From Reyranella sp. CPCC 100927 (GTDB taxonomy: Bacteria > Pseudomonadota > Alphaproteobacteria > Reyranellales > Reyranellaceae): DNA of 64,000 nt. A model generated the notes under the pieces. The model ran no database searches. It saw only the letters and a program-made list of their open reading frames with translations, and was not told the origin of the DNA. Positions 45,354-64,000 of this stretch are shown here, in pieces. The position numbers and the translations under genes are program-made. The DNA is taken from the NCBI RefSeq assembly GCF_007859315.1, contig NZ_VOHA01000016.1, positions 1 through 64,000 of the forward strand, in the 5' to 3' direction. The first letter of the stretch is position 1. Each line of letters begins with the position of its first letter.

Positions 45354-46940
45354 GTGCAGTACAGGTTTGAAGACTACGTGCTCGACCCCGAACGACGTGA
45401 GCTCACGCGCGGCGTCGAGACAGTCGCCGTTGGGCCCAAGATCTTCGACCTGCTGCTCTACCTGGTGCAGCACCGTGACCGCGTCGTCAGCAAGGATGAC
45501 CTGCTGCAAGCCGTGTGGGATGGGCGGATCGTCTCAGAATCAACCCTGACCAGCCATATCAATGGCCTGCGCAAGGCGATCGGTGACAACGGCGAGACGC
45601 AGCGCCTGATCCGGACAGCGTCGCGCAAGGGGTTCCGGTTTGTTGGCGACGTCCGGGAGGAGACCCGGGCATCCGATGGCGGCGTCCCACTCGAGACCGG
45701 AACCGCCGGATCGAACAAGACGATCACGCCGGTGCTCGCCCTTCCCGACAAGCCGTCCATCGCGGTGTTGGCGTTCCAGAACCTGAGTGGCGATCCGCAG
45801 CAGGAATACTTCGCCGACGGCGTGGTGGAGGATATCATCACGGCGCTGTCGCGCATCGGCTGGCTGTTCGTCATCGCCCGCAATTCAAGCTTCACCTACA
45901 AGGGCCGGGCGGTCGATGTGAAACAGGTGGGCCGCGAGCTCGGTGTGCGCTACGTGCTGGAAGGCAGCATGCGCAAGGCTGCCAACCGCGTGCGCATCAC
46001 GGGGCAGCTCATCGATGCGACGACCGGGGCGCATATCTGGGCGGACCGCTTCGAAAGCGCCCTCGACGACATCTTCGAGGTGCAGGATCGGATGGCCGAG
46101 GGAGTCGTCGGCGTCATCGCGCCACAAGTGGAACGGGCGGAGATCGAGCGCGCGATGCGCAAGCCGACCGGAAGCCTGGACGCCTACGATTGCTATCTCC
46201 GGGCGCTGCCGCACTTCCACGCCCTGACCCGCGAGGGCGTGGATCAAGCGCTTGCGCTGCTCGATCGGGCCGTTGCCATCGACCCGCACTTTGCACTGGC
46301 GAAGGCGCTGGCCGCGCGCTGCTACGCGTGGCGAAATCCCCACGGCTGGGCCACCGCGCCGGAAGCCGAAAAAGCCACCGCGGCACGGCTTGGTCAGGAG
46401 GCGTTGCGGGATGGCGCGGACGACCCGACCGTGCTGTGGATGGTGGGCTTTGCACTGTGGCAGCTTCGCATCGACCCCGAGCGGGCGCTCGCGCTGTACG
46501 ACAGGTCGCTCGCCCTGAATGCGAACGGCGCGCAGGCGCTAGGCCTTCGCGGCTGGGCACTGGCGACCGCAGGGCAGCCCGACGAAGCCCTCCCACCACT
46601 TCTCAAAGCCATCCGACTGAGCCCATACGATCCGGAAGCATTCTTTACCATGACCGCCATCGGATGCACCCACCTCCTGGCCGAACGCTTCGATGAGGCC
46701 GTCACATGGACGTCCCGCGCGCTCAGGGAGCGGCCATTCTTTGCACCGGCGCTTCGCTTCCATGCGGCATGCCTGATCGGGCTCGGTCGCGTGCAGGAGG
46801 CACGCGATACGATCGCGCATCTGCTGCAACAGGAGCCTACATTGACTGTTTCAGCCTTGCGCCGGCGGGCGCCTATTTTTGATGCAAAGCTGATGGATGC
46901 TTATCTAGATGGCCTGCGAAAGGCGGGGTTGCCCGAGTAA
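45354..46940 (+). CDS. Winged-helix/TPR regulator, paralog 1
   Basis: 528 residues. Residues 1-100 are an OmpR/CadC-type winged helix (FEDYVLDPERRELTRG, FDLLLYLVQHRDRVVSKDDLL, SESTLTSHINGLRKAIGD, TASRKGFRFVGDV). About 125-240 is a TolB N-terminal-like domain (DKPSIAVLAFQNLSGDPQQEYF, ELGVRYVLEGSMRKA). From about 250 a chain of TPR-like helical repeats runs to the C-terminus. No membrane segment is visible, so it is cytoplasmic, unlike CadC or ToxR. The GTG at 45354 follows GGTAGGG. Two close paralogs occur at 59661 and 63531. The targets and signal are unknown. Confidence 0.85.
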   Translation: MQYRFEDYVLDPERRELTRGVETVAVGPKIFDLLLYLVQHRDRVVSKDDLLQAVWDGRIVSESTLTSHINGLRKAIGDNGETQRLIRTASRKGFRFVGDVREETRASDGGVPLETGTAGSNKTITPVLALPDKPSIAVLAFQNLSGDPQQEYFADGVVEDIITALSRIGWLFVIARNSSFTYKGRAVDVKQVGRELGVRYVLEGSMRKAANRVRITGQLIDATTGAHIWADRFESALDDIFEVQDRMAEGVVGVIAPQVERAEIERAMRKPTGSLDAYDCYLRALPHFHALTREGVDQALALLDRAVAIDPHFALAKALAARCYAWRNPHGWATAPEAEKATAARLGQEALRDGADDPTVLWMVGFALWQLRIDPERALALYDRSLALNANGAQALGLRGWALATAGQPDEALPPLLKAIRLSPYDPEAFFTMTAIGCTHLLAERFDEAVTWTSRALRERPFFAPALRFHAACLIGLGRVQEARDTIAHLLQQEPTLTVSALRRRAPIFDAKLMDAYLDGLRKAGLPE

Positions 46941-50625: not shown

Positions 50626-51852
50626 TTAGACGTCGGTGACGCGCTCCGGCTCGGCCGATGCGAGCGCCGCAGCACGCTCGGGCTTCGGCGGGTAGATCCA
50701 CACCGTGTTGATCTCCTGCTTGGTCTTCTTCGCCTCGGCGCCGACCATCTCCACCTTGCGGTCCCAGCCGCGCGTGAAGAGCGCGCCGTATTCACCGAGG
50801 TCGAGACAGGTGACATAGGCCTTCTGGTGATACGGCTTCAGCGGCTCGCCCAGCAGCTCGGCGGCGGCGTTGTGGCCGGCAAAGGCGCCCATTCGCGTGG
50901 CGTGCTGGCACGACATCAGAGCGTAGTTGCCGACATCGTCGCAGGCGGCCTTGGCAGCGTCGCCCGTCGCAAGAACACCGGGTACCGACGACACACGCAA
51001 CTCGCGGTCGACCAGCAGCCGGCCGAAGTTATCGCGCTCGGCCGGGATCTGCGCGGTCAACGGCGCGGCGCGCATGCCGGCCGCCCAGATCACGGTCGCG
51101 CTCTCGATGCGCACGCCATCGCTCAGTGTGACACCGGTATCGTCCAGTGACGCGACACCGGCGCCGAGCCGGGTCTCCACATTCAGCTCGCGCAGTGCAC
51201 CCGCGATGACCGGCCGCGGGCCGGCGCCCATATCCGGCGCGATCGCGTCGTTGCGCTCGACGATGACGACGCGCGGCTTGGCATTCTTGCCGAGGATCGC
51301 ACGAAGCCGCGCCGGCATCTCCGTCGCCACCTCGATGCCGGTGAAGCCCCCGCCGGCGACGACGACGGTGTCGCGCGCCGCTGACGCCGGCCGATCCGCC
51401 AGGCTGTGCAGGTGCCGGTCGAGGGCAACCGCGTCGTCGCGTTGGTCGACACTGAAGGCATACTCGGCGAGGCCAGGGATGTTCGGACGGAACAGCCGGC
51501 TGCCGGTGGCCACGACCAGCCGATCGTATGGCAGTGTCTCGCGCACACCCTTGGCGGTAACGAATTGCACCGAGCGGGATTTGGTGTCGACGGTCTCGGC
51601 GAGGCCTTGCACGTAGAGAACGTCGATGGCCTTGAGGACATCCTGGAGCGGCGCGGTCAGGGTTTCCGGCTTCGGCTCATAGAGACGCGGGCGAATCACC
51701 AGAGTGGGCTCCGGTGCAACGAGCGCGATCTCGAGCTCCTGGGACGAGACGCCCTTCATGTCGCGAAGACGGGCGGCGGAGAGCGCAGCGTACATAGCGG
51801 CAAAGCCGGCACCGATGATGACGATGCGTTGGGCGGACGGTTGCTTTGGCAT
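50626..51852 (-). CDS. NDH-2-like FAD/NAD(P)-binding oxidoreductase (second copy)
   Basis: 408 residues with the pattern of NDH-2/disulfide-reductase-like enzymes: [21 protein letters not shown] at the N-terminus, [19 protein letters not shown], the second Rossmann [21 protein letters not shown] and [33 protein letters not shown] near the C-terminus, where NDH-2 has its quinone-facing segment. It lacks the hydrophobic C-terminal helix of the copy at 4110 and is more divergent. The ATG at 51852 has AGAGGG upstream. It heads the adc/patatin/bdhA operon and carries the first copy of the shared upstream module (51899-51980). Confidence 0.85.
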
Positions 51853-51898
51853 GGGACCCTCTGTTGGGTATCGATCACGTCCATCGCGATCGATGTGA

Positions 51899-51980
51899 GC
51901 GGAGGATGCCTGCAAACCGGCCGGAAGACCTTGCAGCGCCCTTGAATTGCCGTTGCAGTTATCTTGGTTATTCGTCCAAG
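51899..51980 (-). promoter_or_regulatory. Shared upstream module, copy 1 (before the NDH-2/adc operon)
   Basis: Read on the plus strand: a leader with GGAGGATGCC (51901-51910), the box GGAAGACCTTGCAG (51923-51936), and the inverted repeat CTTGGTTATTCGTCCAAG (51963-51980) with arms CTTGG/CCAAG. The same three parts recur at 59530-59614, 62085-62178 and 63130-63216. Copy 1 lacks the intervening ATTGAATTTCC found in copies 2-3 but has TTGAATTGCC nearby. The gene it serves is on the minus strand, 47-128 bp away. Confidence 0.6.
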
Positions 51981-52036
51981 ACGGTCGCTATCCTGGTGTA
52001 CGTTATTGGCGGATGTGCATCGGCCCTTCTCGTCGT

Positions 52037-52149
52037 CCTGAACGCAGCGAAGGACCCTGCGGTATGTCCCTCAAAGAATGACGGCGCTGATGATCATCAG
52101 CGCCGTCCGTGTCGATGCCAGTACTGCAAGATCCTTCGCTGCGCTCAGG
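52037..52149. repeat. Nested palindromic intergenic repeat
   Basis: Outer arms of 18 bp, CCTGAACGCAGCGAAGGA (52037-52054) and its inverted copy at 52132-52149 with one mismatch, enclose a perfect 28-bp palindrome at 52080-52107 centred on GATGATCATC. This is the layout of small mobile palindromic elements (REP/MITE-like). The family with CCTGAGCGCAGCGAAGGA-type ends is widespread in proteobacterial intergenic DNA. It sits just after the stop of the first MBL gene. Confidence 0.75.
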
Positions 52150-52152
52150 CGG

Positions 52153-53067
52153 TCAGTACTCCCAATAGGCCGGTACAAAACGAAAGGCGTCGCCGGCGAC
52201 CGCGACCCGGCCGAGGGACGGGAACGGCAGATGGCAGGCCACCAGCGGCTCGCGGGTCGCCGCCAGCTCCCGCAAAAGACCGATTCGGACGCGAGCAGCG
52301 TCCTCGGGGTCGTGTTCGAAGGCGTTGTACCAGTCGGGGTGGTCGAAACCGGCTGGTAGCACGGCATCGCCGAGGAACGTCAGCCGGTCGCCTCCGGACG
52401 CCAGTCGAACAACGCTGTGCCCGACGGTGTGGCCGCCGGTACGACGGACGAGCACCCCTGGCGCCACCTCATGCTCCGCCTCGAACAGCCGCAGCTGGCT
52501 ACCGTACTCGGTCAAGAACCTAGCGGCGGCCGACCGAGCCGCGTCCGGAAACCACGCTGGCATGGAGGCGTTCGTGGAGAAATCGGGCGATGCCCAGAAC
52601 TTGGCCTCGGCGGCAGCCGCGTGGATCGGTACGTCCGGACGCAGCCGCTCCCTCACCCCGTCGACGAGCAGCCCGCCAACGTGGTCGAAGTGCATGTGGG
52701 TAAGCACCACGTCGGTCACGGACGCTAGATCGATGCCTGCAGCCTGCAGGCGCTGGGCCCACCGCCCGGCCCGCCTGAAGTCCGGCTGCTGATCCCCGAG
52801 CCCAGAATCGATCAGTATGGTCCGGCCGCCGCTACGCACCACGACCACGTTCACCGGCCACACCATCTCGTCTGGCGGCAGGAACGTGTCGTCCAGCCAG
52901 GCCGCCACCTCGGACGGGTCGGCATTGGTGGCCAAGTTCGGGGTTTTCAGCGACAGCAGCCCATCACTGACCACCAGCACGTCAATCTCGCCGACCCGCA
53001 GCGCGTAGCGCGACGGAACCAGTTCGTCGGCCCTCGGTCTACCGAGATGCAAGGCGTTGTCCAACAT
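52153..53067 (-). CDS. MBL-fold metallo-hydrolase (tandem copy 1)
   Basis: 304 residues with the metal motif THMHFDHVGG (HxHxDH), a later His in RTGGHTVGHSVV and Asp in FLGDAVLPAGF, the full set for a two-zinc metallo-beta-lactamase fold. Many members hydrolyse lactones or thioesters. The start MLDNALHLGRPRADELVPSR at 53067 has GGAGG upstream. It is about two-thirds identical by eye to the neighbour at 53350, including the C-terminal end RFVPAYWEY, so the pair is a tandem duplication. The substrate is unknown; quorum-quenching lactonases have similar layouts. Confidence 0.85.
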   Translation of the reverse strand: MLDNALHLGRPRADELVPSRYALRVGEIDVLVVSDGLLSLKTPNLATNADPSEVAAWLDDTFLPPDEMVWPVNVVVVRSGGRTILIDSGLGDQQPDFRRAGRWAQRLQAAGIDLASVTDVVLTHMHFDHVGGLLVDGVRERLRPDVPIHAAAAEAKFWASPDFSTNASMPAWFPDAARSAAARFLTEYGSQLRLFEAEHEVAPGVLVRRTGGHTVGHSVVRLASGGDRLTFLGDAVLPAGFDHPDWYNAFEHDPEDAARVRIGLLRELAATREPLVACHLPFPSLGRVAVAGDAFRFVPAYWEY

Positions 53068-53349
53068 GTTTGTCTCCTCCTTCGCTCGTGGTGTTGCTCC
53101 GCTAGTGGCGAGACCATGATCGCTGACGTGCCGAGCCCTCGATACCGTGCAACCTGCTAGGTTCTGCTATCCAAGAAGCAGGTAGACCTGCCCTTTGAGA
53201 TGGGTTGAGGTGAGTCACGCTCGCGATTTCGCCGGCTTGGGCAACGAAGCCTACGCCGGCGAAGATGCTGATGATGTCGTACGACGCTGCGATCGACCCG
53301 TTGTTCAAGCGCATGCGGGTCGTCGCGTTCGGTGCTGACCGACAAGCGG
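53068..53349. repeat. Upstream part of the MBL tandem duplication (copy 1)
   Basis: The 5' region of MBL copy 1 matches 54259-54430, which precedes copy 2: GCTAGTGGCGAGACCATGATCGC, GATACCGTGCA and AACCTGCTAGGTT are shared. That last motif (53151-53163) is a palindrome, AACCT/AGGTT. A second inverted repeat, GCAGGTAGACCTGC, is at 53178-53191. Further out, weaker similarity continues to about 53240. No intact gene was found here. Confidence 0.6.
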
Positions 53350-54258
53350 TCAGTATTCCCAGTAGGCCGGTATGAAACGAAAGGCGTTGCCGGCGACCGC
53401 CACCCGACCGAACGGGAACGACACGTGAGCGGCCACCAGCAGCTCGCGGCTCGCCGCCAGCTCCCGCAAAAGACCGACCCGGACGCGGACCGACTCCTCG
53501 GGGTCATGGTCGAACGCGTTGTGCCAATCGGGACGCTCGAAGTGGTTATGGAACACGGCATCGCCGAGGAACGTCAGCCGTTCGCCGCCGGACGTCAGGC
53601 GGACCACGCTGTGCCCGGGGGTGTGGCCGCCGGTGCGACGGATGACCACGCCCGGCGCCACCTCGCGCTCGTCATCAAACAGCTGAAGTTGCTTGCGGTA
53701 GGTGTCCGCGAACCGCGTGGCGGCCGATCGGAGCACGTCCGGTATCCCCTTCGGAAAGGCGTTGCGGGAGAAATCGGGCGACCTCCAGAACTCGACCTCG
53801 GCAGCCGCGATGTGGATCGGCAAGTCCGGGCGAAGCCGGCTCCTCAGCTCGTCGGCAAGCAGCCCGCCGACGTGGTCGACGTGCTGGTGGGTAATCACCA
53901 TGTCGGTCACGGATGCAGGGTCGATGCCGGCGGCCTGCAGTCGCTGTGCCAATCGCCCGGTCTGCGGGAAGTCCCGGAACTCCGCTCCAACGCCGGCGTC
54001 GATGAGCACGGTCCGGCCGCCACTGCGCACCACGATCACGTTCAGCGGCCAAAAGAACTTGTCCGCCGGCTGGCGCATGTCGTCCAGCCAGGCCGCCACC
54101 TCGGCCGGCTTGCCGTTGGTGGCGATCGTCGCGTCAGGCAGCGGCAGCACCCCATCGCTGATCACCAGCACGTCAATCTCGCCGACCCGCAGCGCGTAGC
54201 GCGACGGAACCAATTCATCGGCCCTCGGTCTATCGAGACGTAAGGTGTCGTCCAGCAT
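53350..54258 (-). CDS. MBL-fold metallo-hydrolase (tandem copy 2)
   Basis: 302 residues, paralogous to the gene at 52153. Metal motif THQHVDHVGG, His in RTGGHTPGHSVV, Asp in FLGDAVFHNHFERPDWH, and the shared N-terminus MLDDTLRLDRPRADELVPSR. The third residue of the HxHxDH motif differs from copy 1 (Val for Phe) and the loop after the Asp differs, so the substrate may differ slightly. The start at 54258 has GGAG upstream. It is transcribed towards copy 1 and shares its duplicated upstream region; the two probably have separate promoters. Confidence 0.85.
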   Translation of the reverse strand: MLDDTLRLDRPRADELVPSRYALRVGEIDVLVISDGVLPLPDATIATNGKPAEVAAWLDDMRQPADKFFWPLNVIVVRSGGRTVLIDAGVGAEFRDFPQTGRLAQRLQAAGIDPASVTDMVITHQHVDHVGGLLADELRSRLRPDLPIHIAAAEVEFWRSPDFSRNAFPKGIPDVLRSAATRFADTYRKQLQLFDDEREVAPGVVIRRTGGHTPGHSVVRLTSGGERLTFLGDAVFHNHFERPDWHNAFDHDPEESVRVRVGLLRELAASRELLVAAHVSFPFGRVAVAGNAFRFIPAYWEY

Positions 54259-54645
54259 GTTCGTCTCCTCTCTACGAGTGATGTTGCTCTGCTAGTGGTG
54301 GTGTTGCTCCGCTAGTGGCGAGACCATGATCGCGAACGTACCGGGCCCTCGATACCGTGCAGCCTGCTAGGTTCAGCTACCCAAGAAGTAGATAAACCTA
54401 CACTTTGAGATAGGTTGAGGCAGATCGCGGGCCTGCGCTTCAAGCGACGAACACCGACCGCGAATGAGCCGCGATCAAACCGATGCTGCCGGACAAGCCG
54501 CGCGGCATCCCACCGATCAACGACCGGCGTGTCATCAATCGCATCTTTTGGGTAGTCGGATCAGGAGCGCCGCGGCACGAGCACTTGGCCATCCCGGGCG
54601 TGAGCCCGCCGTTCGCGAAGGTTACCGGTGGGGATGGGGCACCGA
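54259..54645. repeat. Upstream part of the MBL tandem duplication (copy 2) and gap
   Basis: The first 170 bp repeat the region 53068-53240. They contain AGCCTGCTAGGTT at 54361-54373 and GTAGATAAACCTAC at 54388-54401, the counterparts of the palindromes in copy 1. A short local duplication (GTTGCTC-GCTAGTGG) occurs at 54288-54318. A 31-codon minus-strand frame starting MTRRSLIGGM (54440-54535) resembles a Tat signal but is too short to be a gene. No other gene to 54645. Confidence 0.55.
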
Positions 54646-54912
54646 TCAATCAACCTTCGGCTCGGTGGGTTCGACCCGAACATCGTCGTCTTGTCCGCTG
54701 CGATGGCTGTAGAACACCAGCGCCATCAAACCGACGGCAAGCGCCACCGTGAATATGATTCCCAGGATCAACGGTGCGACTGCCCCCGGATCGAGATCGA
54801 GGGAGCCGATTGCCGCCCAGCAGATTCCGGCGATCGCTACGATCCCGACGACGCAGGCAACAGAAAACCGGGTGATCCAGTGCGACTTGCGCATCTCCGT
54901 AACGATGCCCAT
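54646..54912 (-). CDS. Small membrane protein with two helices
   Basis: 88 residues. Two hydrophobic segments, FSVACVVGIVAIAGICWAAI and VAPLILGIIFTVALAVGLMALV, are followed by an acidic tail (RSGQDDDVRVEPTEPKVD). The ATG at 54912 has AAGGAG eight bases upstream, a strong site, which supports a real gene. I know no family. It lies 57 bp downstream of the EmrB-type gene on the same strand and may be its last cotranscribed gene. Confidence 0.65.
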   Translation of the reverse strand: MGIVTEMRKSHWITRFSVACVVGIVAIAGICWAAIGSLDLDPGAVAPLILGIIFTVALAVGLMALVFYSHRSGQDDDVRVEPTEPKVD

Positions 54913-54969
54913 CGTCCCAGCTCCTTGGCTTGAGTGCCTAAATCCCGCTTGACCATCGTAACGCGTATC

Positions 54970-56595
54970 TCAAGCGGTGGCATGCGCCCGCGCGGGCGCG
55001 ACCGCCGGCTTCAGCGCGGCTGGCGTAAGCGGGCCGGGCGGCGCCGCGCGCATCAGACTGACCAGCAGCATGCCGGCGATGGCGGCCCAGAAGGTTACCT
55101 CGAAACCGTCGATGAAGGAGAGGACGTCGGCCTGACGCCGCACGAACGACGCCAAGGTACTGGTCGCGCGCGCCACGGCCGTCTCGGCGGCGGCGCTGTG
55201 CTCGATGAATCGTCCCTTCAGCTGGTCCAGCGCATGCGCGACTTCGCTATCGCCCGCCGACACATGCAAGCCGATCAAGTTCGAATGGACCTGCTCGCGC
55301 ACGCGCAGCCAGGTGCTCATGACAGTGGTGGTGATCTCGATGATATCCAGGCGCATCACCTGGATGTAGGCAACGAGCGCGACGGTACGCGCGGGGTTCG
55401 CATTGGACACCACGAAGACCAACAGGCCGGTAAAGGTGAGGCCCTGGCCGAGGGCCTGCACGAGCGCCATGGGAATAAAATCATCGGGCGACCACTCATG
55501 CGTGATGCCGGTCCCCATCCAGCCGCTGATGGCGAAGCATGTCAGCCCGCCGAGAATCACCCACCGCGCGTCGAACCGGCGCAGCAGGAAGACCGCGGCG
55601 GCGACCACGCCAACCAGCGGCAATGCCGTGTAGTTGAGAAGCAAGTCGCCAACCTGCTCGGGTCGAAGGTGGCCGACGACGGTCAGGAAGTTCGGGACCA
55701 GCATCATGTTGGACAGGCTCGTGACCATGTAGGTCATGAGCGCCAGCATCGCGAGGCCGATGTTTCGCGACATCAGCACCGATGGATGCGCCCAGGGCTC
55801 CGGGACGACCGCTTCATTGATCAGGAAGCCGATGATTAGCGCACCGCCACCCACAAGGAGACTGGTGACGATCCCGGACTCGAACCAGTCAAGCCGGTTA
55901 CCCTGGTCGAGGCCGGCGTAGATCAGGGCGAGGCCGCCGCCCAGCAGCAACATCCCGCCCCAGTCGGCCTTGGCGAGAAGCTGGCGATTGACGGTTTCCC
56001 GCGGCGTGCCCAGCCATGCCAGCAACACCATGACCACAGCGACGATGGCGTTCTGCCAATAGATCCACTCCCAGCCCAGGTGCTGCACATGGAAACCCAC
56101 CAGCGATACGCCTGAATTGCCCGTGAACGACAGCCGGAACGAGTAGATCGCAAGGCCGACAACCCACCACCGCATGGGCAGATTGTGCAAGACGATCATG
56201 ATCGTTACCGGGACGAAGACACCCAGCAGCAAACCATGAACGAAGTGCAGAGCGAGGAGCGCCTGGTAGTCGCGGACGAAGGGAATGGCCAGCGACAGGA
56301 CGATGTAGATCAGACTGGGCGCAACGAGCACGCGGCGCACGCCGAGGACGGTCGCGAGCCAGGGTATGGCGGGTGCGACGAGGAGCTGCGGCGCGAGCGC
56401 AATCGTGGCGAGCCAGGTACCCTCGTCGAACGTCAGTCCGAAGGCGCCTCTGAGATCCGCCAGGCCGATCGCGAGCAGCCGCTGGTCGAAGCTCACGAGG
56501 AAGGCCCCGACCAATACCGCGGCCGCCCCCAGCACAGGGTTGTGGCTGGGGCGGCCTGTCGAGACAGCACCAGCACTGGTCAGCTCAGTTGCCAT
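54970..56595 (-). CDS. emrB: MFS multidrug exporter, EmrB (DHA2) type
   Basis: 541 residues with 14 membrane helices and a large periplasmic/cytoplasmic loop around 420-480. It starts AAVLVGAFLVSFDQRLLAIGLADL, whose DQR-x-LAIGL replaces the usual LD-x3-VNVALP. Other regions are GTWLATIALAPQLLVAPAIPWL and LALHFVHGLLLGVFVPV. With the HlyD-type partner it should form a tripartite exporter. The start overlaps the end of emrA by 11 bp. The loop after residue 430 (EQVHSNLIGLHVSAGDSEVAH) is typical of the DHA2 group in alphaproteobacteria that pairs with EmrA. It is regulated by the kinase/regulator pair upstream, by inference. Confidence 0.82.
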   Translation of the reverse strand: MATELTSAGAVSTGRPSHNPVLGAAAVLVGAFLVSFDQRLLAIGLADLRGAFGLTFDEGTWLATIALAPQLLVAPAIPWLATVLGVRRVLVAPSLIYIVLSLAIPFVRDYQALLALHFVHGLLLGVFVPVTIMIVLHNLPMRWWVVGLAIYSFRLSFTGNSGVSLVGFHVQHLGWEWIYWQNAIVAVVMVLLAWLGTPRETVNRQLLAKADWGGMLLLGGGLALIYAGLDQGNRLDWFESGIVTSLLVGGGALIIGFLINEAVVPEPWAHPSVLMSRNIGLAMLALMTYMVTSLSNMMLVPNFLTVVGHLRPEQVGDLLLNYTALPLVGVVAAAVFLLRRFDARWVILGGLTCFAISGWMGTGITHEWSPDDFIPMALVQALGQGLTFTGLLVFVVSNANPARTVALVAYIQVMRLDIIEITTTVMSTWLRVREQVHSNLIGLHVSAGDSEVAHALDQLKGRFIEHSAAAETAVARATSTLASFVRRQADVLSFIDGFEVTFWAAIAGMLLVSLMRAAPPGPLTPAALKPAVAPARAHATA

Positions 56596-57991
56596 GGCTG
56601 CTCACCCCTTGCGCGGATTTCTTGACATCACCTGTCACGTTGATCCGTGTCACGACCGACATCCCCGGCCGCAACTGTTCGACCAATGGCTGCCCGGCGT
56701 CGAATTCGATGCGGACAGGGATTCGCTGCACCACCTTGGTGAAATTGCCGGTGGCATTGTCGGGCGGCAGCAGGGCGAAGCTCGATCCGCTCGCCGGCGA
56801 GAGCCGCTCGACACGACCACGCAGAACGGTGCCGGGGAACATGTCCACGGTCACTTCGACCGGCTGGCCCGGCGCCACGTGCGTGAGCTGCGTTTCCTTG
56901 TAGTTGGCGACGGCGTAGACATTTGGCAGCGGCACCACGGCAATCAGCAAGGTCCCGACATTGACGTAGTCGCCTTCCTGCACCCGTCGCTCGCCGACGA
57001 CACCGTCGACCGGCGCCACGATACGCGTGTAGCCCAGGCGCAGTCGGGCCGTCGTCAACGCCGCCTCGGCGGCCAGGACATTGGCGTGCAGCAACGCCTG
57101 CTGGCCGTTCAAGACCTTGAGCTGGCGGCGTTGCGCTTCGATCGTCGCGTCGCTGGCAGCCTGGGCGGCCCTGGCCGTGTCGTGATTGGCCGTCGCCTGC
57201 TCAACCCGTTGGCGGGTGCCCGCGAGGCTGCCGCGCAGGAGTGCTTCCTGCCGTGCCAGTTCCTCGCGCGTTTGAACGGTACGCGCGAGCGCCGAGAGAT
57301 GCTGCGCCTCCGCCTGGTCGATGGCTGCCTGCTGGAATGCCTTCTGATTCTCGAGGTTTTCCAGCTGGGCCCGTGCCGCCGCGACGCTCGCCTCGGCTTG
57401 CGCCACGACCGCGTCGTAGTCTGCCGGTTCGATTTCCAGCAGCACATCGCCCGCCTTGACGTGCTGGAAGTCTTCAACCGCAACGCGCCTGATATTGCCG
57501 CTTACGCGCGCACTCAGTCGCGTGACGTCGGAGCGCACCGTCGCGTTGTCCGTCGTCTGCACGGCGGCCGCTCCCAGCCACGCCTCCCACCGAACTGACG
57601 TGGCCGCCACAAACACGCCGACGATACCGACGGCCAGCATCGGTATGATCAGCCGGCGCAGGCTGCGCGATGGCGGCGCGGGCGGCGCAGCCGCCTCAGG
57701 GCTGCCATGGCCAGCGTTATCAGGCGTTGCGCGCCGCGGCGTGGCGTCACCTCCGCCAGGCGCTTTCAACGCAACGCCGGCGGCCTTGTCCGGCTGAGGC
57801 GGTACACGTGCCGCATCGATGAGCGCCAGCGGCAACTTGGGCGTGCTGGCCCCTTCTTTCCGGTGTTTTGGCGCCTCTTCGGCCGGGCAGCTTTGCCGAA
57901 GCGCTTCGCCCGGCAGATCCTTTTGCTTGCGTTCGATGGCATCGCTGAGGCCACCGGCCGGGTGAAGCGACCCATTGGCGTTGCTCGTCAT
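56585..57991 (-). CDS. emrA: HlyD/EmrA-type membrane fusion protein
   Basis: 468 residues from the ATG at 57991 (an ATG one codon earlier is closer to GGAGG). A long Pro/Ala-rich cytoplasmic leader of about 130 residues precedes the membrane helix (IIPMLAVGIVGVFVAATSV). The periplasmic part follows the EmrA pattern: the beta-barrel/lipoyl half VKAGDVLLEIEPADYDAVVAQAEAS, a long alpha-helical hairpin of coiled-coil heptads rich in Gln/Ala (AFQQAAIDQAEAQHLSALA and onward), then YTRIVAPVDGVVGERRVQEGDYVNVGT and GQPVEVTVDMFPGTVLRGRV. It is coupled to emrB and follows the response-regulator gene by 52 bp. Confidence 0.88.
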   Translation of the reverse strand: MTSNANGSLHPAGGLSDAIERKQKDLPGEALRQSCPAEEAPKHRKEGASTPKLPLALIDAARVPPQPDKAAGVALKAPGGGDATPRRATPDNAGHGSPEAAAPPAPPSRSLRRLIIPMLAVGIVGVFVAATSVRWEAWLGAAAVQTTDNATVRSDVTRLSARVSGNIRRVAVEDFQHVKAGDVLLEIEPADYDAVVAQAEASVAAARAQLENLENQKAFQQAAIDQAEAQHLSALARTVQTREELARQEALLRGSLAGTRQRVEQATANHDTARAAQAASDATIEAQRRQLKVLNGQQALLHANVLAAEAALTTARLRLGYTRIVAPVDGVVGERRVQEGDYVNVGTLLIAVVPLPNVYAVANYKETQLTHVAPGQPVEVTVDMFPGTVLRGRVERLSPASGSSFALLPPDNATGNFTKVVQRIPVRIEFDAGQPLVEQLRPGMSVVTRINVTGDVKKSAQGVSSHGN

Positions 57992-58043
57992 CATATGTCC
58001 TCCAGCCGGTGTTGTGTTCGAGTGGGCGGAAGATGCGCGCGGC
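57992..58043 (-). promoter_or_regulatory. Leader of emrA resembling the shared upstream module (partial copy)
   Basis: In the 52-bp gap between the regulator and emrA genes the plus strand reads GTGTTCGAGTGGGCGGAAGATG at 58014-58035, close to GTGTTCGACTGAGCGGAAGATG at 63123-63144, and it ends in the GGAGG site before emrA. The GGAAGACCTTGCAG box and the inverted repeat are absent. This is therefore only the leader/SD part of the module, not a promoter copy. Confidence 0.5.
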
Positions 58044-58733
58044 TCACGGTCTGTCGCGAAGCTCGGCGGGCACCGAGTCCCAGGTGCGTACAAGCTGTCC
58101 AACGGACGCCGCCTGCATCTTTCGCATGACGTTGCCGCGGTGGAGTTTGACGGTGACCTCACTGATCCCCAGGTCGAAGGCGATCTGCTTGTTGACTCGC
58201 CCGTAGGCCAGCTCATGCAGAACCTGGCGCTCACGCGGGGTCAGCGTGGCAAACCGGTCGACATGCTGCTTGACGATGCGATCCTCGGCTCGCTGCGCGA
58301 CATCCCGTGCAATGCCGGCGGACACGGCATCGAGCAACGCCTGTTCCTGCACCGGCTTCGTGAGGAAATCGACGGCTCCGGCTTTCATGGCCTTGACCGT
58401 CATCGCAACGTCGGCATGGCCGGAGAGAAAGATGATCGGCTTCCTGTTGCCGATCGATGCGAGATGTTGCTGGAGATCCAGGCCGCTCAATCCCGGCATG
58501 CGGATGTCGAGGATCAGGCAACCCGGTCTTGCCGGAAGCGCGGCGCCCAGCAATTCACGCGTCGATGCGAAACAGACCGCGTCGAGGCCGACCGAGAGCA
58601 GGAGTTCCTGAAGCGCGGCCCGGACCGCCTCATTGTCGTCGACGATCAACACGAGGGGACATTGCAGATCGCCACTGTTCGCCGGCGGGCCAGACTGATG
58701 GCGCGGCAGGAGCCTGGAAGGGTCGTTTGTCAT
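58044..58733 (-). CDS. FixJ-type response regulator (receiver + LuxR-type HTH)
   Basis: 229 residues. The receiver has VLIVDDNEAVRAAL, the phospho-Asp in LILDIRMPGLSGLDLQQHL and Lys in FLTKPVQEQALL; the output domain is a GerE/LuxR helix-turn-helix (LTPRERQVLHELAYGRVNKQIAFDLGISEVTVKLHRGNVMRK), as in FixJ/NodW. The ATG at 58733 has GAGG upstream and begins one base after the kinase stop. It is expected to be phosphorylated by the adjacent kinase and to act on the emrAB genes just downstream, and possibly on the modules elsewhere. An upstream extension of the frame is not used. Confidence 0.88.
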   Translation of the reverse strand: MTNDPSRLLPRHQSGPPANSGDLQCPLVLIVDDNEAVRAALQELLLSVGLDAVCFASTRELLGAALPARPGCLILDIRMPGLSGLDLQQHLASIGNRKPIIFLSGHADVAMTVKAMKAGAVDFLTKPVQEQALLDAVSAGIARDVAQRAEDRIVKQHVDRFATLTPRERQVLHELAYGRVNKQIAFDLGISEVTVKLHRGNVMRKMQAASVGQLVRTWDSVPAELRDRP

Positions 58734-58734
58734 G

Positions 58735-59499
58735 TCATTTGACCTCATGACTGGCACGCAGCGCCTCGGCATCGCTGGCGTGAACCGGCAGCGTGAAGAC
58801 GAACGTCGTCCCGCCTGGCTTGTTGGGTGATGCCCAGAGTCGGCCATCATGCGACTCGATGATTGAACGGCAGATCGCGAGGCCCATGCCCATGCCGTGC
58901 GTCTTGGTGGTGAAGAACGGCTCGAAAATCTGCTCGAACTCGGTCAGGCCGATCCCGTTGTCCCGAACCTCCACACGGATCGTCCCGGCCGCGTCGCACA
59001 GTGAGCGGATCTGCACTGATCGTGCGTCGTCCGCGACTGTATCGAGCGCGTCGAGTGCGTTACGGATGAGGTTGGTGAGGACCTGCTGGATCTGGATCCG
59101 GTCGGCGCGTGCAGGCGGAAGGTCGGGGTCGAGCTCGAACGCGACACGGATATTCTTCGTCGCGATCTCATCGGCCATCGACTGCCAGACCGCGTCGATC
59201 ACTTGGTTGATATCGACCGACGTTCTTGCCCGAATACCGCCCCGACTGAAGAGCCCATCGATGCGGCTGACGAGCTCGGCAGCCGCGTGGGCGTCGCGAA
59301 TGATCCGCTCCAGCGTTGTCCTGCCCCGGTCGAGATTCGGAGGATCGGCGGACAGCCAGCGTCGACACGCCTGTGAGTTGGCCACGATCGCCGCCAGGGG
59401 CTGGTTGACCTCGTGCGCAATCGAGGCGACCGCGAAGATGCCGGCATTGTTGGACCGCGAAGCGCCGCTGACGAGGGCCAGGTTTTGCTGAGAGCTCAT
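58735..59499 (-). CDS. Soluble histidine kinase lacking a sensor domain
   Basis: 254 residues. It consists only of the dimerisation/phosphotransfer part (AVASIAHEVNQPLAAIVANS, with the His near residue 29; LERIIRDAHAAAELVSRID) and a HATPase_c domain (N-box NLIRNALDAL, DNGIGLTE, TKTHGMGMGLAICRSI). The first 20 residues contain no PAS, GAF or membrane segment. FixL-type kinases are normally about 500 residues with PAS domains, so either the sensing part was lost or the signal arrives from a partner protein. The ATG at 59499 has GGAGG six bases upstream. Module copy 2 precedes it. Confidence 0.88.
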   Translation of the reverse strand: MSSQQNLALVSGASRSNNAGIFAVASIAHEVNQPLAAIVANSQACRRWLSADPPNLDRGRTTLERIIRDAHAAAELVSRIDGLFSRGGIRARTSVDINQVIDAVWQSMADEIATKNIRVAFELDPDLPPARADRIQIQQVLTNLIRNALDALDTVADDARSVQIRSLCDAAGTIRVEVRDNGIGLTEFEQIFEPFFTTKTHGMGMGLAICRSIIESHDGRLWASPNKPGGTTFVFTLPVHASDAEALRASHEVK

Positions 59500-59529
59500 G
59501 ACGTACCTCCGGCCTGTGTCGTGATCGAG

Positions 59530-59614
59530 CAGGCGGAGGATGCCGGATCGCCGGCTGGAAGACCTTGCGTCGCCGTTTGATTGTGATTGAATTTCCCTTG
59601 GTTATCCGTCCAAG
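59530..59614 (-). promoter_or_regulatory. Shared upstream module, copy 2 (before the kinase/EmrAB operon)
   Basis: On the plus strand: GGCGGAGGATGCCGGATCG (59532-59550), GGAAGACCTTGC (59557-59568), GATTGAATTTCCC (59585-59597) and the inverted repeat CTTGGTTATCCGTCCAAG (59597-59614). It sits between the divergent kinase gene (minus) and winged-helix/TPR paralog 2 (plus, 59661), so either or both could be controlled. Confidence 0.65.
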
Positions 59615-59660
59615 CGACCCGGCAGTCCGACGCTTGCGTGCGCGATCAGGGAGAGCTGGC

Positions 59661-61244
59661 GTGCAGTATGCGTTCGAGGACTATGTGCTCGACCCCGAAC
59701 GACGCGAGCTCACGCGCGGCGCCGCGACGGTCGCCGTCGGGCCCAAGGTCTTCGACTTGTTGCTCTACCTGGTGCAGCACCGTGATCGCGTCGTCAGCAA
59801 GGACGACCTGCTGCAAGCGGTATGGGATGGGCGGATCGTTTCCGAATCGACCTTGACCAGTCATATCAATGCGGTGCGCCGGGCGCTCGGTGACAGCGGC
59901 GAGGCGCAGCGCCTGATCCGGACCGTTGCGCGCAAGGGGTTCCGGTTCGTTGGCGATATCCGGAACCTCCCGGTCCAGGATGGCGGCAGCACCATCGCGG
60001 CAGAGGCCGTAGGATCGACCGAACTCTCGGCACCAGTCCTCGCCCTTCCCGACAAGCCATCAATCGCCGTGCTGGCATTCCAGAACCTGAGCGGCGATCC
60101 CGAACAGGAGTACTTCGCCGACGGCGTCGTGGAGGACATCGTTACCGCGTTGTCACGCAATCGCTGGCTGTTCGTGATCGCCCGCAATTCGAGCTTCACC
60201 TACAAGGGCCGGGCGGTGGACCTGAAACAGGTGGGCCGCGAGCTGGGCGTGCGCTATGTGCTGGAAGGCAGCGTGCGCAAGGCGGCGAGCCGGGTTCGTA
60301 TCACCGGACAGCTCGTCAACGCGACGACCGGAACAAATCTGTGGACGGACCGCTTCGAAAGCGCGCTCGATGACATCTTCGATCTGCAGGATCAGCTGGC
60401 CGAGAGTGTCGTCGGTGCTATCGCGCCACAGCTTGAACGGGCGGAAATCGCGCGCGCGATGCGCAAGCCTACGGAAAGCCTCGGCGCCTATGACTATTAT
60501 CTGCGCGGTATCGCGAGCTTCCATCAGGCTACCAGCGAGGGCATCAGCGCCGCACTGGCGTTGTTCTACCGGGCCATAGAACGCGACCCCGCTTTCGCGT
60601 CGGCCCATGGCATGGCGGCGTGGTGCATTTACTGGCGCAAAATGAACGGCTGGATCGGCGACCGCGTGCGGGACTACGCCGAGGGCGCTCGATTGGCCAA
60701 CCGCGCGATCGAACTGGGCGCCAACGATGCGGTCGCCCTCACGCGAGGCGGCCACGCGCTCGCCCATTTCGGCGGCGATCTCGACAATGGCATCGCGGCG
60801 GTCGACCGGGCGCTGGCGCTCAATCCCAACCTGACGATCGCCTGGTATCTCAGTGGCTTCCAGCGGATCTCCCGCGGCGAGCCTGATGATGCGATCGAGC
60901 GTTTTGCGCATGCCATGCGCTTGAGCCCGCTCGATCCCGAGATATTCCAGATGCAGACCGGCACGGCGATGGCACATATGTTCGCGCGACGCTTCGACAT
61001 GGCGTCGGCATGGGCGGAAAAGGCATCCAGGACGCTGCCCGACGTGCTGCGGGTGTTCGCCTTTGGCGCCGCGAGCCACGCACTTGCCGGCCGAATGGAC
61101 GAAGCACAGCGCGCCATGCAGCACGTGCGTCGTCTGGCGCCCGCCTTGCGGCTTTCCGACGTCGAGGATTGGGTCGTGCTCCGGCGACCGGACGATCTGG
61201 CCACGTTCGTGGAAGGCCTGCGAAGAGCCGGGCTGCCGGCGTGA
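59661..61244 (+). CDS. Winged-helix/TPR regulator, paralog 2
   Basis: 527 residues from the GTG at 59661 with GGGAGAG upstream. Same architecture as paralog 1: winged helix (FEDYVLDPERRELTRG, FDLLLYLVQHRDRVVSKDDLL, ARKGFRFVGD), TolB-N-like domain (DKPSIAVLAFQNLSGDPEQEYF, LGVRYVLEGSVRKAASRVRI) and C-terminal TPR repeats. The DNA-binding half and the TolB-like half are highly similar to paralog 1; the TPR half is clearly diverged, so input partners probably differ. The leader GCGATCAGGGAG before the start recurs before paralog 3. It faces the kinase gene across module copy 2 and converges with the NmrA-like gene. Confidence 0.88.
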   Translation: MQYAFEDYVLDPERRELTRGAATVAVGPKVFDLLLYLVQHRDRVVSKDDLLQAVWDGRIVSESTLTSHINAVRRALGDSGEAQRLIRTVARKGFRFVGDIRNLPVQDGGSTIAAEAVGSTELSAPVLALPDKPSIAVLAFQNLSGDPEQEYFADGVVEDIVTALSRNRWLFVIARNSSFTYKGRAVDLKQVGRELGVRYVLEGSVRKAASRVRITGQLVNATTGTNLWTDRFESALDDIFDLQDQLAESVVGAIAPQLERAEIARAMRKPTESLGAYDYYLRGIASFHQATSEGISAALALFYRAIERDPAFASAHGMAAWCIYWRKMNGWIGDRVRDYAEGARLANRAIELGANDAVALTRGGHALAHFGGDLDNGIAAVDRALALNPNLTIAWYLSGFQRISRGEPDDAIERFAHAMRLSPLDPEIFQMQTGTAMAHMFARRFDMASAWAEKASRTLPDVLRVFAFGAASHALAGRMDEAQRAMQHVRRLAPALRLSDVEDWVVLRRPDDLATFVEGLRRAGLPA

Positions 61245-61309
61245 CGGCCGGGTTGGTCAACAGGGTGCGAGATCATCCACTACACAACCAGGCGCTTCCT
61301 GCCCGACGG

Positions 61310-62062
61310 TCAGCGCGCCGACGTACGGTTGAGCCAGTCGTCAAAACTGGTCGGCCCCAACCGCGGACGGTCGCCTGGCGTCAGCGACCGATCGTTCAGC
61401 TCGGTGCCGAAGTAGCGTGCGTGGATGTCCGCAACCACCTGGCGCGGATCACCCCGAGCGGCGAGGAACTTCCGGGCGACATGGTCGAGCGGCCAGGCAT
61501 CGGGACCGGCAATTTCGACGATATCGTTCAACGGTGGCGCGACGGCCAGGTCGGCCAGCGCCGCCGCGACGTCATCCGACGCGATCGGTTGCAGGAGCGC
61601 GGGCGACAGCCGGATCACGCCGCCTTGTGCGCCGGCTTCGGCGATGGGGCCGATGAACTCGAAGAACTGCGTCGCACGGAGAATGGTGTAGGGGATCGCG
61701 GCCGCCGTGATCAGCGTCTCCTGGGCCACCTTGGCGCGGAGGTAGCCGCTGTCCGGCGCCCGATCGGCCCCGACGACGGACAAGGCAAGGTGATGCTCGA
61801 CGCCCGACGCCGCTTCCGCCGCGGCCAGGTTGCGGCCGGCAGTCTGAAAGAAATCCAGGACGGCCTTGTCCTCGAACGACGGCGAATTCGCCACATCGAC
61901 GACAACTGCGGCGCCCGCCAGGGCTGCCGACAGTCCTTCGCCCGTGATGGCGTTGACACCCGACCTCGGCGACGCGGCCACGACCTCATGGCCTTTCTGG
62001 CGAAGCCTGTTGACCAGATTGCTTCCGATCAGGCCACTGCCGCCGATGACGACGATCTTCAT
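61310..62062 (-). CDS. NmrA-like NAD(P)-binding oxidoreductase (atypical SDR)
   Basis: 250 residues. The N-terminal glycine motif VVIGGSGLIGSNLVNRL binds NAD(P); VVVDVANSPSFEDKAVLDFF and HHLALSVVGADRAPDSGYLRAKVAQE follow, with Tyr-x3-Lys near-match YLRAK. The C-terminal region (ATQFFEFIGPIAEAG) is the NmrA/NAD(P)H quinone-oxidoreductase-like substrate part. The ATG at 62062 has GGAG nine bases upstream. It carries module copy 3. A decayed copy of its first 100 bp and upstream region occurs at 62580-63216. Role unknown; relatives are redox-sensing regulators or reductases. Confidence 0.85.
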   Translation of the reverse strand: MKIVVIGGSGLIGSNLVNRLRQKGHEVVAASPRSGVNAITGEGLSAALAGAAVVVDVANSPSFEDKAVLDFFQTAGRNLAAAEAASGVEHHLALSVVGADRAPDSGYLRAKVAQETLITAAAIPYTILRATQFFEFIGPIAEAGAQGGVIRLSPALLQPIASDDVAAALADLAVAPPLNDIVEIAGPDAWPLDHVARKFLAARGDPRQVVADIHARYFGTELNDRSLTPGDRPRLGPTSFDDWLNRTSAR

Positions 62063-62084
62063 GTATCAATCTCCGCGTTGTGTC

Positions 62085-62178
62085 GGGTTCGACGACGCGA
62101 AGAATGCCGGATCACAGGTCGGAAGACCTTGCAGGCGTCGCCACGCGGGATTGAATTTCCCTTGGTTCTTCGTCCAAG
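62085..62178 (-). promoter_or_regulatory. Shared upstream module, copy 3 (before the NmrA-like gene)
   Basis: On the plus strand: GGTTCGACGACGCGAAGAATGC (62086-62107), then GCCGGATCAC, GGAAGACCTTGCAG (62121-62134), GATTGAATTTCC (62149-62160) and the inverted repeat CTTGGTTCTTCGTCCAAG (62161-62178). This is the best-preserved full copy. The gap 62063-62285 has no gene otherwise. Confidence 0.65.
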
Positions 62179-62285
62179 GCCGCAGCGGCCGGTTATATTA
62201 GTTCACAGCGGCTCGAAAAATTGATGCTTTACACTCACTTGCCATCCGGAGGTGCCGCCGCTTTTCCGGCACACCAGTCAGGATC

Positions 62286-62495
62286 CTAACTTGCCGGTTC
62301 CGCAACGGCCGGCTCTTCCTTCACGAGAATGTCTGTGTCGATCGTTGCCGCATGATAGCCAGGGAAAGCGACATCCCAGCCGAGCGCCAAAAGTACGCCC
62401 GCGGCCATCCCTACGAAGAACGCCGAGACGATCATCATGCGAAGTTGATCGAGCTTCGGGCCGGTCACTTTCTCGTTTCGGGCAATACGCGACAT
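62286..62495 (-). CDS. Small single-helix membrane protein
   Basis: 69 residues from the ATG at 62495, with AAGGAG seven bases upstream. A basic N-terminus (MSRIARNEKVTGPKL) is followed by one membrane helix (LRMMIVSAFFVGMAAGVLLALGW) and a mostly acidic tail (DTDILVKEEPAVAEPAS). The strong ribosome site supports translation. No family is recognised. It lies upstream of, and on the same strand as, the NmrA-like gene, with module copy 3 between them, so it is probably a separate transcript. Confidence 0.6.
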   Translation of the reverse strand: MSRIARNEKVTGPKLDQLRMMIVSAFFVGMAAGVLLALGWDVAFPGYHAATIDTDILVKEEPAVAEPAS

Positions 62496-62579
62496 CTCTG
62501 GCTCCTTGGCGACAGGTGGTTCGGGGCAGGCGCTTCGCAAATGACGTTTCCTCATGGCTCGATAGACGTCCGGGCCGCC

Positions 62580-63101
62580 TCAGGCTGCATGGCAGGATGT
62601 CGACAAAACATCCGAGCCGTTGGCGCGAACGGTGAGAGCCTCCCTGCCGGCGAGGCCGAAGGATGCAAGCGCTCTCAGCCACGGGGATCCGGAAAGCGAA
62701 AGGCATCCGGCCATCGCGAAGTACGCTGTTCGCGCCAGATGACAAATCGTCTGCATTGCCCTCAGCAGGGCACGTACGCTCCGCTCCGGTTGAACGCGCT
62801 GCGCTGCACCGTTCGGGGTCGGGCGGGCGCGTGCGGATGAACTCAAAGCCGTGGCCGAGCGAGCGACGAGCAGTGACGCAGCAGCGTGCGGATTGGTCTC
62901 GTGGACAGCGGCAAGCGTCGCCCTCGACGTGCTGGACATCGCGTCATCGACGCGTATCGCGCCGATGCAAACAGCCGCCAACAGTGCTGCACAGATACCC
63001 AGAGCCGGCGACACGGCCACGACCTCGCGGCCGTCGTGATGAAGCCTGTCGGCCAGACTGGTCCTGATCAGGCGGCGGTGTCCGATGACGAGGATCTTCA
63101 T
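62580..63101 (-). pseudogene. Decayed copy of the NmrA-like gene
   Basis: The frame begins at an ATG (63101) with GGAG at good spacing and MKILVIG, close to the MKIVVIGGSGLIG start of the intact gene. The glycines of the cofactor motif are lost (VIGHRRLIR for VIGGSGLIG), and after about 33 codons (GREVVAVSP) similarity fades apart from a weak match around CIGAIRVDDAMSSTS. The remaining 140 codons have no recognisable pattern and are rich in Ala/Arg/Ser. Together with the degenerate module copy 4 it looks like a decayed duplicate. Confidence 0.65.
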
Positions 63102-63129
63102 GGTCATTCTCCGCGTCGTGTCGTGTTCG

Positions 63130-63216
63130 ACTGAGCGGAAGATGCCGGATCGGTCGCCAGAAGACCTTGCAGCTGCCTTCGATCGAGATTGAAATTTCCT
63201 TGATTCTTCGTCTAGA
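63130..63216 (-). promoter_or_regulatory. Shared upstream module, copy 4 (degenerate, before the decayed gene)
   Basis: On the plus strand: GAGCGGAAGATGCCGGATCG (63133-63152), AGAAGACCTTGCAG (63159-63172), GATTGAAATTTCC (63187-63199) and CTTGATTCTTCGTCTAGA (63199-63216). The inverted-repeat arms carry substitutions (CTTGA/TCTAG) compared with CTTGG/CCAAG in the other copies, matching the loss of the downstream gene. About 315 bp further on, winged-helix/TPR paralog 3 begins. Confidence 0.55.
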
Positions 63217-63243
63217 GCGCATCTCGGCTTTATGGAAACCGTT

Positions 63244-63317
63244 GTCATCCCGAGCACAGCGAGGGATCTCCCGGCAATGGAGTCGCCGTTCGCGGAGTTC
63301 TCTCGCTGCGGGATGAC
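63244..63317. repeat. Palindromic intergenic repeat (GTCATCCCG type)
   Basis: Arms GTCATCCCG (63244-63252) and CGGGATGAC (63309-63317) pair perfectly, and an inner pair AGCGAG (63258-63263)/CTCGCT (63302-63307) continues the stem. The loop is about 40 nt. This type of GTCATCCCGAGC-ended palindrome is common in bacterial intergenic DNA. The remainder of 63217-63530 shows no gene. Confidence 0.6.
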
Positions 63318-63530
63318 AGTGTGGTCGGACCACCGTCGGGCCTGCCAAAGCGGCTGTGACGTCTTGGACCTCGCGCGAGGTGCGCTTCCAATTTAATGAG
63401 GGCGCGACCTTAATCGGCGCGACGATGCCGTGCTCGACGAAGGCTGCTATGCTGTGGCCAGACGGTGGGTGTCCACCCTGTTGCCCTGGCTGCGTATCTG
63501 CGCCTGCGTGCGCGATCAGGGAGGACCGGC

Positions 63531-64000
63531 GTGCCGTACGCGTTTGAAGACTACGTGCTCGACCCTGAGCGGCGGGAACTTACCCGTGGCCCGGGCGCAA
63601 TTGCCGTCGGCCCGCAAGTCTTCGACCTGCTGCTCTATCTGGTGCAGAGGCGTGAGCATGTCGTCAGCAAGGACGAGCTGCTCGATGTGGTGTGGAACGG
63701 ACGGATCGTCTCTGAATCGACTCTCACCAGTCATATCAATGCAGCACGCAAGGCGGTCGGCGACAGCGGTCAGGACCAGCGCCTGATCCGAACGATCGCG
63801 CGCAAGGGATTTCGGTTTGTCGGCGACGTCACGGAAGGGCAGCCACTGGCCGGTTTCAGCCGCGAGAACACCGACGACGACGCGCGCGACGCGCTCCCTC
63901 AGGCACCGGAGCTGCCCGACAAACCATCCGTCGCAGTCCTGGCATTCCAGAACCTGAGCGGCGACTCCGAACAGGACTACTTCATCGATGGTGTGGTCGA
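63531..64000 (+). CDS. Winged-helix/TPR regulator, paralog 3 (runs off the window)
   Basis: The first 156 codons of a third paralog: GTG at 63531 with GGGAGG upstream, winged helix (FEDYVLDPERRELTRG, FDLLLYLVQRREHVVSKDELL, SESTLTSHINAARKAVGD, ARKGFRFVGDV), then the start of the TolB-like domain (DKPSVAVLAFQNLSGDSEQDYF). The linker (TEGQPLAGFSRENTDDDARDA) is longer and different from paralogs 1 and 2. The leader GCGATCAGGGAG is shared with paralog 2. The C-terminal TPR part lies outside the window. It is divergent from the decayed NmrA-like gene across module copy 4. Confidence 0.88.
   Translation, partial: MPYAFEDYVLDPERRELTRGPGAIAVGPQVFDLLLYLVQRREHVVSKDELLDVVWNGRIVSESTLTSHINAARKAVGDSGQDQRLIRTIARKGFRFVGDVTEGQPLAGFSRENTDDDARDALPQAPELPDKPSVAVLAFQNLSGDSEQDYFIDGVV

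Follow-up and report, generated by a model that had tools for sequence, protein, structure and literature searches.

We analysed a window of 64,000 nucleotides, positions 1 to 64,000 of contig NZ_VOHA01000016.1 of Reyranella sp. CPCC 100927 (RefSeq assembly GCF_007859315.1), in which a multipart sequence module stands upstream of four genes, close to genes for regulators that join a winged helix-turn-helix domain to TPR repeats (wHTH-TPR regulators). A preliminary description had located the four copies, and alignments and profile matches confirm all of them. Module 1 (51898..51980; profile match E 3e-20) lies ahead of a gene for an NDH-2-like pyridine nucleotide-disulphide oxidoreductase (50626..51852), the first of a group that continues with acetoacetate decarboxylase, patatin-like, and short-chain dehydrogenase genes (the last two named by eye). 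Module 2 (59532..59614) lies ahead of a sensorless histidine kinase gene (HisKA plus HATPase; 58735..59499), behind which come genes for a FixJ-like response regulator (58044-58850), HlyD (56585-57994), and an MFS protein (54970-56595). Module 3 (62096..62178) precedes a gene for an NmrA-like NAD(P)-binding protein (61310..62062), and module 4 (63134..63216) precedes a 175-aa open reading frame (ORF; 62580..63107), with an NmrA-like start (by eye) and a remainder unlike NmrA, and a 69-aa ORF for a small membrane protein (62286..62495); both modules are also supported by comparison with a sister species. All these genes are on the minus strand, and the modules are therefore read on that strand as well, finishing 26 to 45 nt ahead of the start codons (45, 32, 33, and 26 nt for modules 1 to 4, with the ATG of the first gene at 51852 and that of the fourth at 63107).

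Aligned on the minus strand, modules 1 to 4 match over 83 positions without internal gaps, and the same holds for 22 four-repeat copies from 15 genomes. The parts follow a fixed order: a cap (CTTGGACG) that contains CTTGG, the half-site in inverted form; four direct repeats of the (C/G)AAGG type at a pitch of 11 bp, at positions 15, 26, 37, and 48 in the 12 copies first known; and a -10-like CATYCT that starts 20 nt behind the last repeat (CAARG). In module 1 the cap occupies 51973-51980, the repeats 51962-51967, 51951-51956, 51940-51945, and 51929-51934, and the -10-like box 51903-51908. The repeats and box lie at 59596-59601, 59585-59590, 59574-59579, 59563-59568, and 59537-59542 in module 2; at 62160-62165, 62149-62154, 62138-62143 (a weak unit), 62127-62132, and 62101-62106 in module 3; and at 63198-63203, 63187-63192, 63176-63181, 63165-63170, and 63139-63144 in module 4. 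In an alignment of 29 copies fixed at the last repeat, all have A49, A50, G52, and T56, and within the CATYCT at positions 73 to 78, C73 is kept in 27, A74 in 28, and T78 in 26. Six copies (four from the order of G374 and the second copies of G129 and G240, three genomes discussed below) are shorter by exactly 11 bp, that is, by one unit, between the cap and the last repeat. The box GGAAGACCTTGCAG alone is an uninformative 14-mer, found with at most two mismatches at 129 places compared with 153 for a reversed control, and its two further exact matches (L001 and L004) lie in unrelated sequence. A sigma54 site was also considered and rejected, as the spacing is a misfit by eye.

No full-length copies other than these four were found in the 9.08-Mb genome (81 contigs), and all four lie inside 12 kb. 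A BLAST search of the whole genome with copy 2 returned only the other three copies at E < 0.05, and a profile built from 22 copies returned the four modules (E 3e-20 to 5e-17) with no other match below 0.13; both scans were aimed at full-length modules, with no separate search for three-unit forms, and the E-values of this profile and of the nine-copy profile used below are rough because calibration was shortened. The result bears on the idea that the module is a small mobile or duplicated repeat that came to lie at gene starts by chance, a finding that the preliminary description had named as fatal to its own proposal. In favour of that idea, the copies remain 75 to 78% alike beyond the core, and some carry a truncated NmrA-like start along with them; but a genome with just four full copies, every one 26 to 45 nt before a start codon, which are orthologous to and conserved in a sister species with sharp upstream edges, leaves it a very slim chance. 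The BLAST and profile scans exclude a genome-wide repeat, and with it the mobile-repeat explanation is largely refuted. Stretches like CCTGAACGCAGCGAAGGACC and CATCCCGAGCACAGCGAGGGATCT adjoin modules 1 and 4 (52034-52060 and 63240-63330) and are possibly a dispersed repeat of this genome.

The sister species (G001, of the same genus) has five module copies before orthologues of the same genes, one of them directly before the small membrane ORF, which in the window follows module 4. Between the two species the modules are 79 to 95% identical (94% for module 1 and 95% for module 2), compared with 33 to 65% for the stretch immediately upstream (39% at module 1) and 55 to 83% for the stretch between module and start codon. 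Conservation so much better than that of the upstream sequence argues for selection on the module itself, and the earlier proposal of a regulon signal kept by selection, at gene starts and not spread over the genome, is thereby supported. No module match was found in the two other genomes of the genus that were examined (G002 and G003). The gene behind module 4 had been called dead, but its frame is open in both species (175 and 185 aa) and under weak constraint, with nonsynonymous and synonymous divergences (dN and dS) of 0.28 and 0.46. Constraint is clearer for the small membrane ORF, also conserved in the sister species (dN 0.17, dS 0.66), and the corresponding values for the kinase are 0.06 and 0.21.

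Three paralogous wHTH-TPR regulators are encoded on the plus strand around the modules. The gene for wHTH1 (59661..61244; Pfam Trans_reg_C and TPR), a HilA/CadC-like protein with a PhoB/OmpR-type winged helix followed by TPR repeats, is divergent from module 2 at a distance of 46 nt. The gene for wHTH2 (68% identical to wHTH1; 63531..64000, running on past the end of the window to about 65111 of the contig) starts 314 nt beyond module 4, and that for wHTH3 (60%; 45354..46940) is at the far end of the NDH-2 gene group. The winged-helix domain PF00486 matches wHTH1 at E 3.4e-18 and wHTH2 at 3.5e-16; NCBIfam models for CadC (7.7e-19), HilA/EilA (4.6e-17), and PhoB (1.9e-13) match wHTH1 far under their cutoffs; and the PDB matches for the DNA-binding domain are CadC and PhoB, the best being CadC 5ju7 (E 8e-11). 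By eye the recognition helices of the three proteins are nearly identical, from which we infer that the three may share sites. Hydropathy gave no membrane segment (maximum 19-residue means of 1.49 for wHTH1 and 1.59 for wHTH3), and the Pfam families matched at E 0.001 beyond the winged helix were TPR families only, with no BTAD-type match. Relatives of these proteins are common in alphaproteobacteria: 61 of 385 genomes sampled from the class had matches at E 1e-60 or better, many rows covering the C-terminal part only. Upstream of wHTH3 is a ThiC-like gene with a stretch that resembles a thiamine pyrophosphate riboswitch.

A profile of nine copies, run under stricter filters over the 385 genomes, matched 14 of them at E 0.01, including the source genome with its four copies; ten further genomes had weak partial matches only (E 0.0017 to 0.009). 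Full-length matches outside the genus, found by sequence alone, came from G374, G240, and G129, which belong to three families (E 1.8e-8 to 2.3e-7). In each of the three, the gene behind the module is NmrA-like or NDH-2-like, and a winged-helix/TPR regulator 50 to 67% identical to wHTH1 is divergent from the module. Orthologues of the regulator were then sought in the orders of G374 (17 genomes), G129 (18 genomes), and G394 (397 genomes). In the order of G129 the only one is in G129 itself; in that of G374, the module is present at seven of eight further loci where the match covers the DNA-binding domain, L206 being weak by eye and L211 being the locus that lacks it. When the 397 genomes were scanned with the 22-copy profile, 14 of them gave a total of 16 matches at E 0.001 or better; the ten strong ones (>36 bits) fall in exactly the eight genomes whose regulator is 62 to 67% identical, seven of which supplied training copies, with no strong match in the other 389. 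Eight of these ten are divergent from the regulator (seven training copies plus L258, the L221 site). Of the remaining two, L257 lies ahead of a truncated NmrA-like start, and the gene behind L250 has a metallo-beta-lactamase fold and is 70% identical to one in the window (52153-53067), so that in other families the module recurs before NmrA-, NDH-2-, and metallo-beta-lactamase-fold genes. Among the six weak matches, L255 and L256 are arrays without a cap, and the wHTH-TPR genes from which they are divergent are more distant (43%). Two more distant regulators, those of G805 and G635, have an 11-bp array by eye. L251 to L254 lie in long open frames with no regulator nearby and were taken as chance. 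At L255, L256, and L189 the gene divergent from the distant regulator encodes a hydrophobic segment close to its start, and these regulators have TCAAG-like 11-bp repeats that end in GCAAAGTCTT or CGAAAGTCTT, with no inverted cap (by eye); these arrays are perhaps a second operator subtype.

The preliminary description had centred on an 18-bp inverted repeat, CTTGG-N8-CCAAG, whose arms are indeed exact in copies 1 to 3. It had taken the decay of the arms as peculiar to copy 4, and there is further loss in that copy (one of five positions pairs), but part of the imperfection is older and shared: in the sister species, both the counterpart of copy 4 and a related copy have three of five positions paired (CTTAG...TCAAG). 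The argument from decay ahead of a dead gene thus holds only in part. The arms are exact in 7 of 31 tabulated copies and pair at four or more of five positions in 18, so that the inverted repeat is common but dispensable; it is not the core of the module. As the key binding site it is not well supported, and it is better described as an inverted half-site plus the first of four repeats. An inverted repeat of this kind has the size of a LuxR-type site, and the FixJ-like response regulator could bind it as a symmetric dimer, in which case the four genes would be its two-component regulon; that the kinase gene itself carries module 2, and that 18 of 31 copies keep most of the pairing, would fit. 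Yet several copies have lost the right arm, the 10 to 19.5 kb around the modules of G374, G240, and G129 (the rest of these genomes being unsearched) yielded a single kinase match (26%) and no orthologue of the response regulator, and 71 of 80 kinase-relative loci were searched with no full module and two partial matches (E 0.16 to 0.17). Site and response regulator thus did not occur together within the stretches fetched, and as no other locus was seen to combine the module with the kinase/regulator pair, the candidate was dropped; we consider a FixJ-like binder quite improbable. Loci in other families that had a wHTH-TPR gene and no response-regulator orthologue moved suspicion to the wHTH-TPR proteins. 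Relatives of the sensorless kinase are numerous in rhizobia and other proteobacteria (at least 596 pattern matches, 580 confirmed).

The 11-bp pitch was examined in several ways. Autocorrelation of the first 12 copies was strongest, among 20 lags, at lag 11 (z 3.2) and lag 22 (z 2.9); as these copies had prompted the idea and the pattern was seen after looking, the test was repeated on ten further homologous four-repeat copies, of which the order of G374 supplied three; lags 11 (z 4.65) and 22 (z 3.69) were again the top two of 20. These new copies are 55 to 72% identical to the first-12 majority over the repeat part. For the order of G394 the rules were fixed beforehand (a matrix for the unit derived from the first 12 copies, arrays of three units, pitches of 7 to 16, and 350 bases of upstream sequence). 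Of the ten pitches, 11 scored best at 7 of 10 unseen regulator loci; the misses were L221 (rank 2), L226 (rank 3), and L225 (rank 10). In control stretches pitch 11 came first in 577 of 8,702, and since control sequence favours pitches 9, 12, and 15, the fair background is this 6.6%, not 10%; a score of at least 13.9, which all seven pitch-11 loci reached, occurred in 0.18% of the same controls. At eight already-seen loci of the order of G374, pitch 11 was best at four. The unseen set leaves out L227 to L229, matches without the DNA-binding domain, and L155, seen before; L221 was excluded from the autocorrelation and from profile model R2, as were three-repeat copies; and 11-bp arrays seen by eye in L184, L189, and L199 after the idea arose were not counted as tests.

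Taken together, the evidence suggests that the modules are most likely the conserved tandem operator-promoter of a small local regulon read by wHTH-TPR regulators, wHTH1 being the likeliest binder, and each module is probably an activator-type promoter whose tandem operator serves the HilA/CadC-like wHTH-TPR regulators encoded nearby. Four protomers (three in the short form) would bind the (C/G)AAGG half-sites head to tail, with 11 bp corresponding to one helical turn, and at the upstream end the inverted cap CTTGG would take or orient one more protomer. If CATYCT is the -10 element, the last repeat would fall at about -38 to -33, in place of a -35 element, and the bound array may recruit RNA polymerase to a promoter that has no good -35. 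The cap is kept at sites with no divergent regulator (modules 1 and 3 and L250; L257 lacks it) and so seems to belong to the module rather than to the regulator's own promoter. The predicted targets are the NDH-2 gene group, the kinase, regulator, and efflux genes, the NmrA-like gene, and the truncated NmrA-like ORF with the small membrane ORF, each presumably cotranscribed behind its module. The same protein could instead be a repressor that keeps the divergent gene and its own gene silent until a ligand reaches its TPR part; the divergent placement 46 nt from wHTH1 fits autoregulation and the array covers the presumed -35, but by eye there is no canonical -35 beside the -10-like box, as in activator-dependent promoters, and modules also precede genes with no divergent regulator, leaving repression unlikely. 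Conserved blocks at fixed distance could also mark a promoter class read by an alternative sigma factor with no DNA-binding regulator, but the blocks extend over more than 70 bp, copies short of exactly one 11-bp unit would go unexplained, and the association with wHTH-TPR genes also tells against it; we give this hardly any credence.

Several observations weigh against the activator interpretation. No module was seen upstream of wHTH3, and modules 1 and 3 have no directly divergent regulator, nor do L250 and L257 (two of the ten strong matches) within 1.5 kb. There is no clear array at L211, which has a 61% identical regulator, or at L225, L226, and L155 (54 to 57%), and of 20 other upstream regions, 19 did not yield the full module and one (L189) was marginal. 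Many copies were gathered via the regulator, which makes association counts there circular. Within the module, the third unit of module 3 is the weak one noted above, and the putative -10 is assigned by conservation only and lies farther from the last repeat than the 8 bp of SARP promoters. Pitch 11 was not first at L206, L207, L208, and L221, and because the copies are homologous, the pitch tests confirm conservation and not independent origin. When only those bases of the ten new copies that differ from the first-12 majority were considered, lag 11, with 95 of 328 matches, came fifth among 20 lags (permutation p 0.18), and for lag 22 p was 0.21. The pitch is thus well conserved, but new changes favouring it are unsupported by the diverged bases, a negative result that lowered our confidence slightly. 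The length steps of 11 bp and the cap-less arrays at L255 and L256 are arguments independent of this problem.

The pho box, too, consists of direct repeats at 11-bp pitch, and PhoB/OmpR-type regulators share with wHTH1 the winged-helix family PF00486. OmpR/PhoB-type proteins bind direct repeats as tandem dimers, and PhoP recognizes 7-bp motifs with a 4-bp spacer, that is, direct repeats at 11-bp pitch (PMC4832192). The module resembles such operators in having half-site direct repeats at this pitch (as in 7 of the 10 unseen loci) and an array that overlaps the presumed -35 region, but it has four (or three) units plus an inverted cap and another half-site sequence, and its predicted regulator lacks a receiver domain and carries a C-terminal TPR part. 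SARP regulators have an OmpR-type DNA-binding domain and direct repeats spaced 11 or 22 bp near the -10, and AfsR has a TPR domain as well (PMC10936776). For SARP promoters the distance of the 3' repeat from the -10 is given as 8 bp. The wHTH-TPR regulators differ in having no BTAD-type match at the Pfam threshold given above, and the module in having more repeats and a longer distance to the -10-like box (20 nt versus 8 bp). In HilA/EilA/YgeH the winged helix likewise comes first, and the HilA/EilA model aligns over residues 4 to 424, but at 61.6 bits against an NCBIfam cutoff of 589, so that by this comparison wHTH1 is a relative of the family and not a member. CadC supplies the best structural match to the N-terminal winged helix; CadC/ToxR activators have a transmembrane segment behind it, whereas wHTH1 and wHTH3 have none by hydropathy. 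The principle of a repeat array is known from PhoB, PhoP, and SARP systems. In the literature searched (largely without subscription papers), no DNA site described for such wHTH-TPR regulators was found, and within it the site, the variable unit number with an inverted cap, and the link to this family appear to be new.

In the window (62580-63107) and at L205, L157:3085, L158:3135, and L257, a module is followed by an NmrA-like start that later diverges (by eye). Promoter and first codons may thus have been duplicated together, and the earlier suggestion that the module was copied as a cassette may be partly true in this sense, several copies having such a start behind them. A bolder and rather doubtful extension is that the operator is modular and tuned in whole helical turns (three or four 11-bp units and one cap), that it spread by duplication of the NmrA promoter with its first codons, and that the three related regulators here read the same sites. 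If true, this would make visible how a one-component regulon can draw in unrelated genes. For the regulators themselves, the exact pitch of the predicted site, the small size of the regulon, and the existence of natural variants short of one unit would make the family readily testable.

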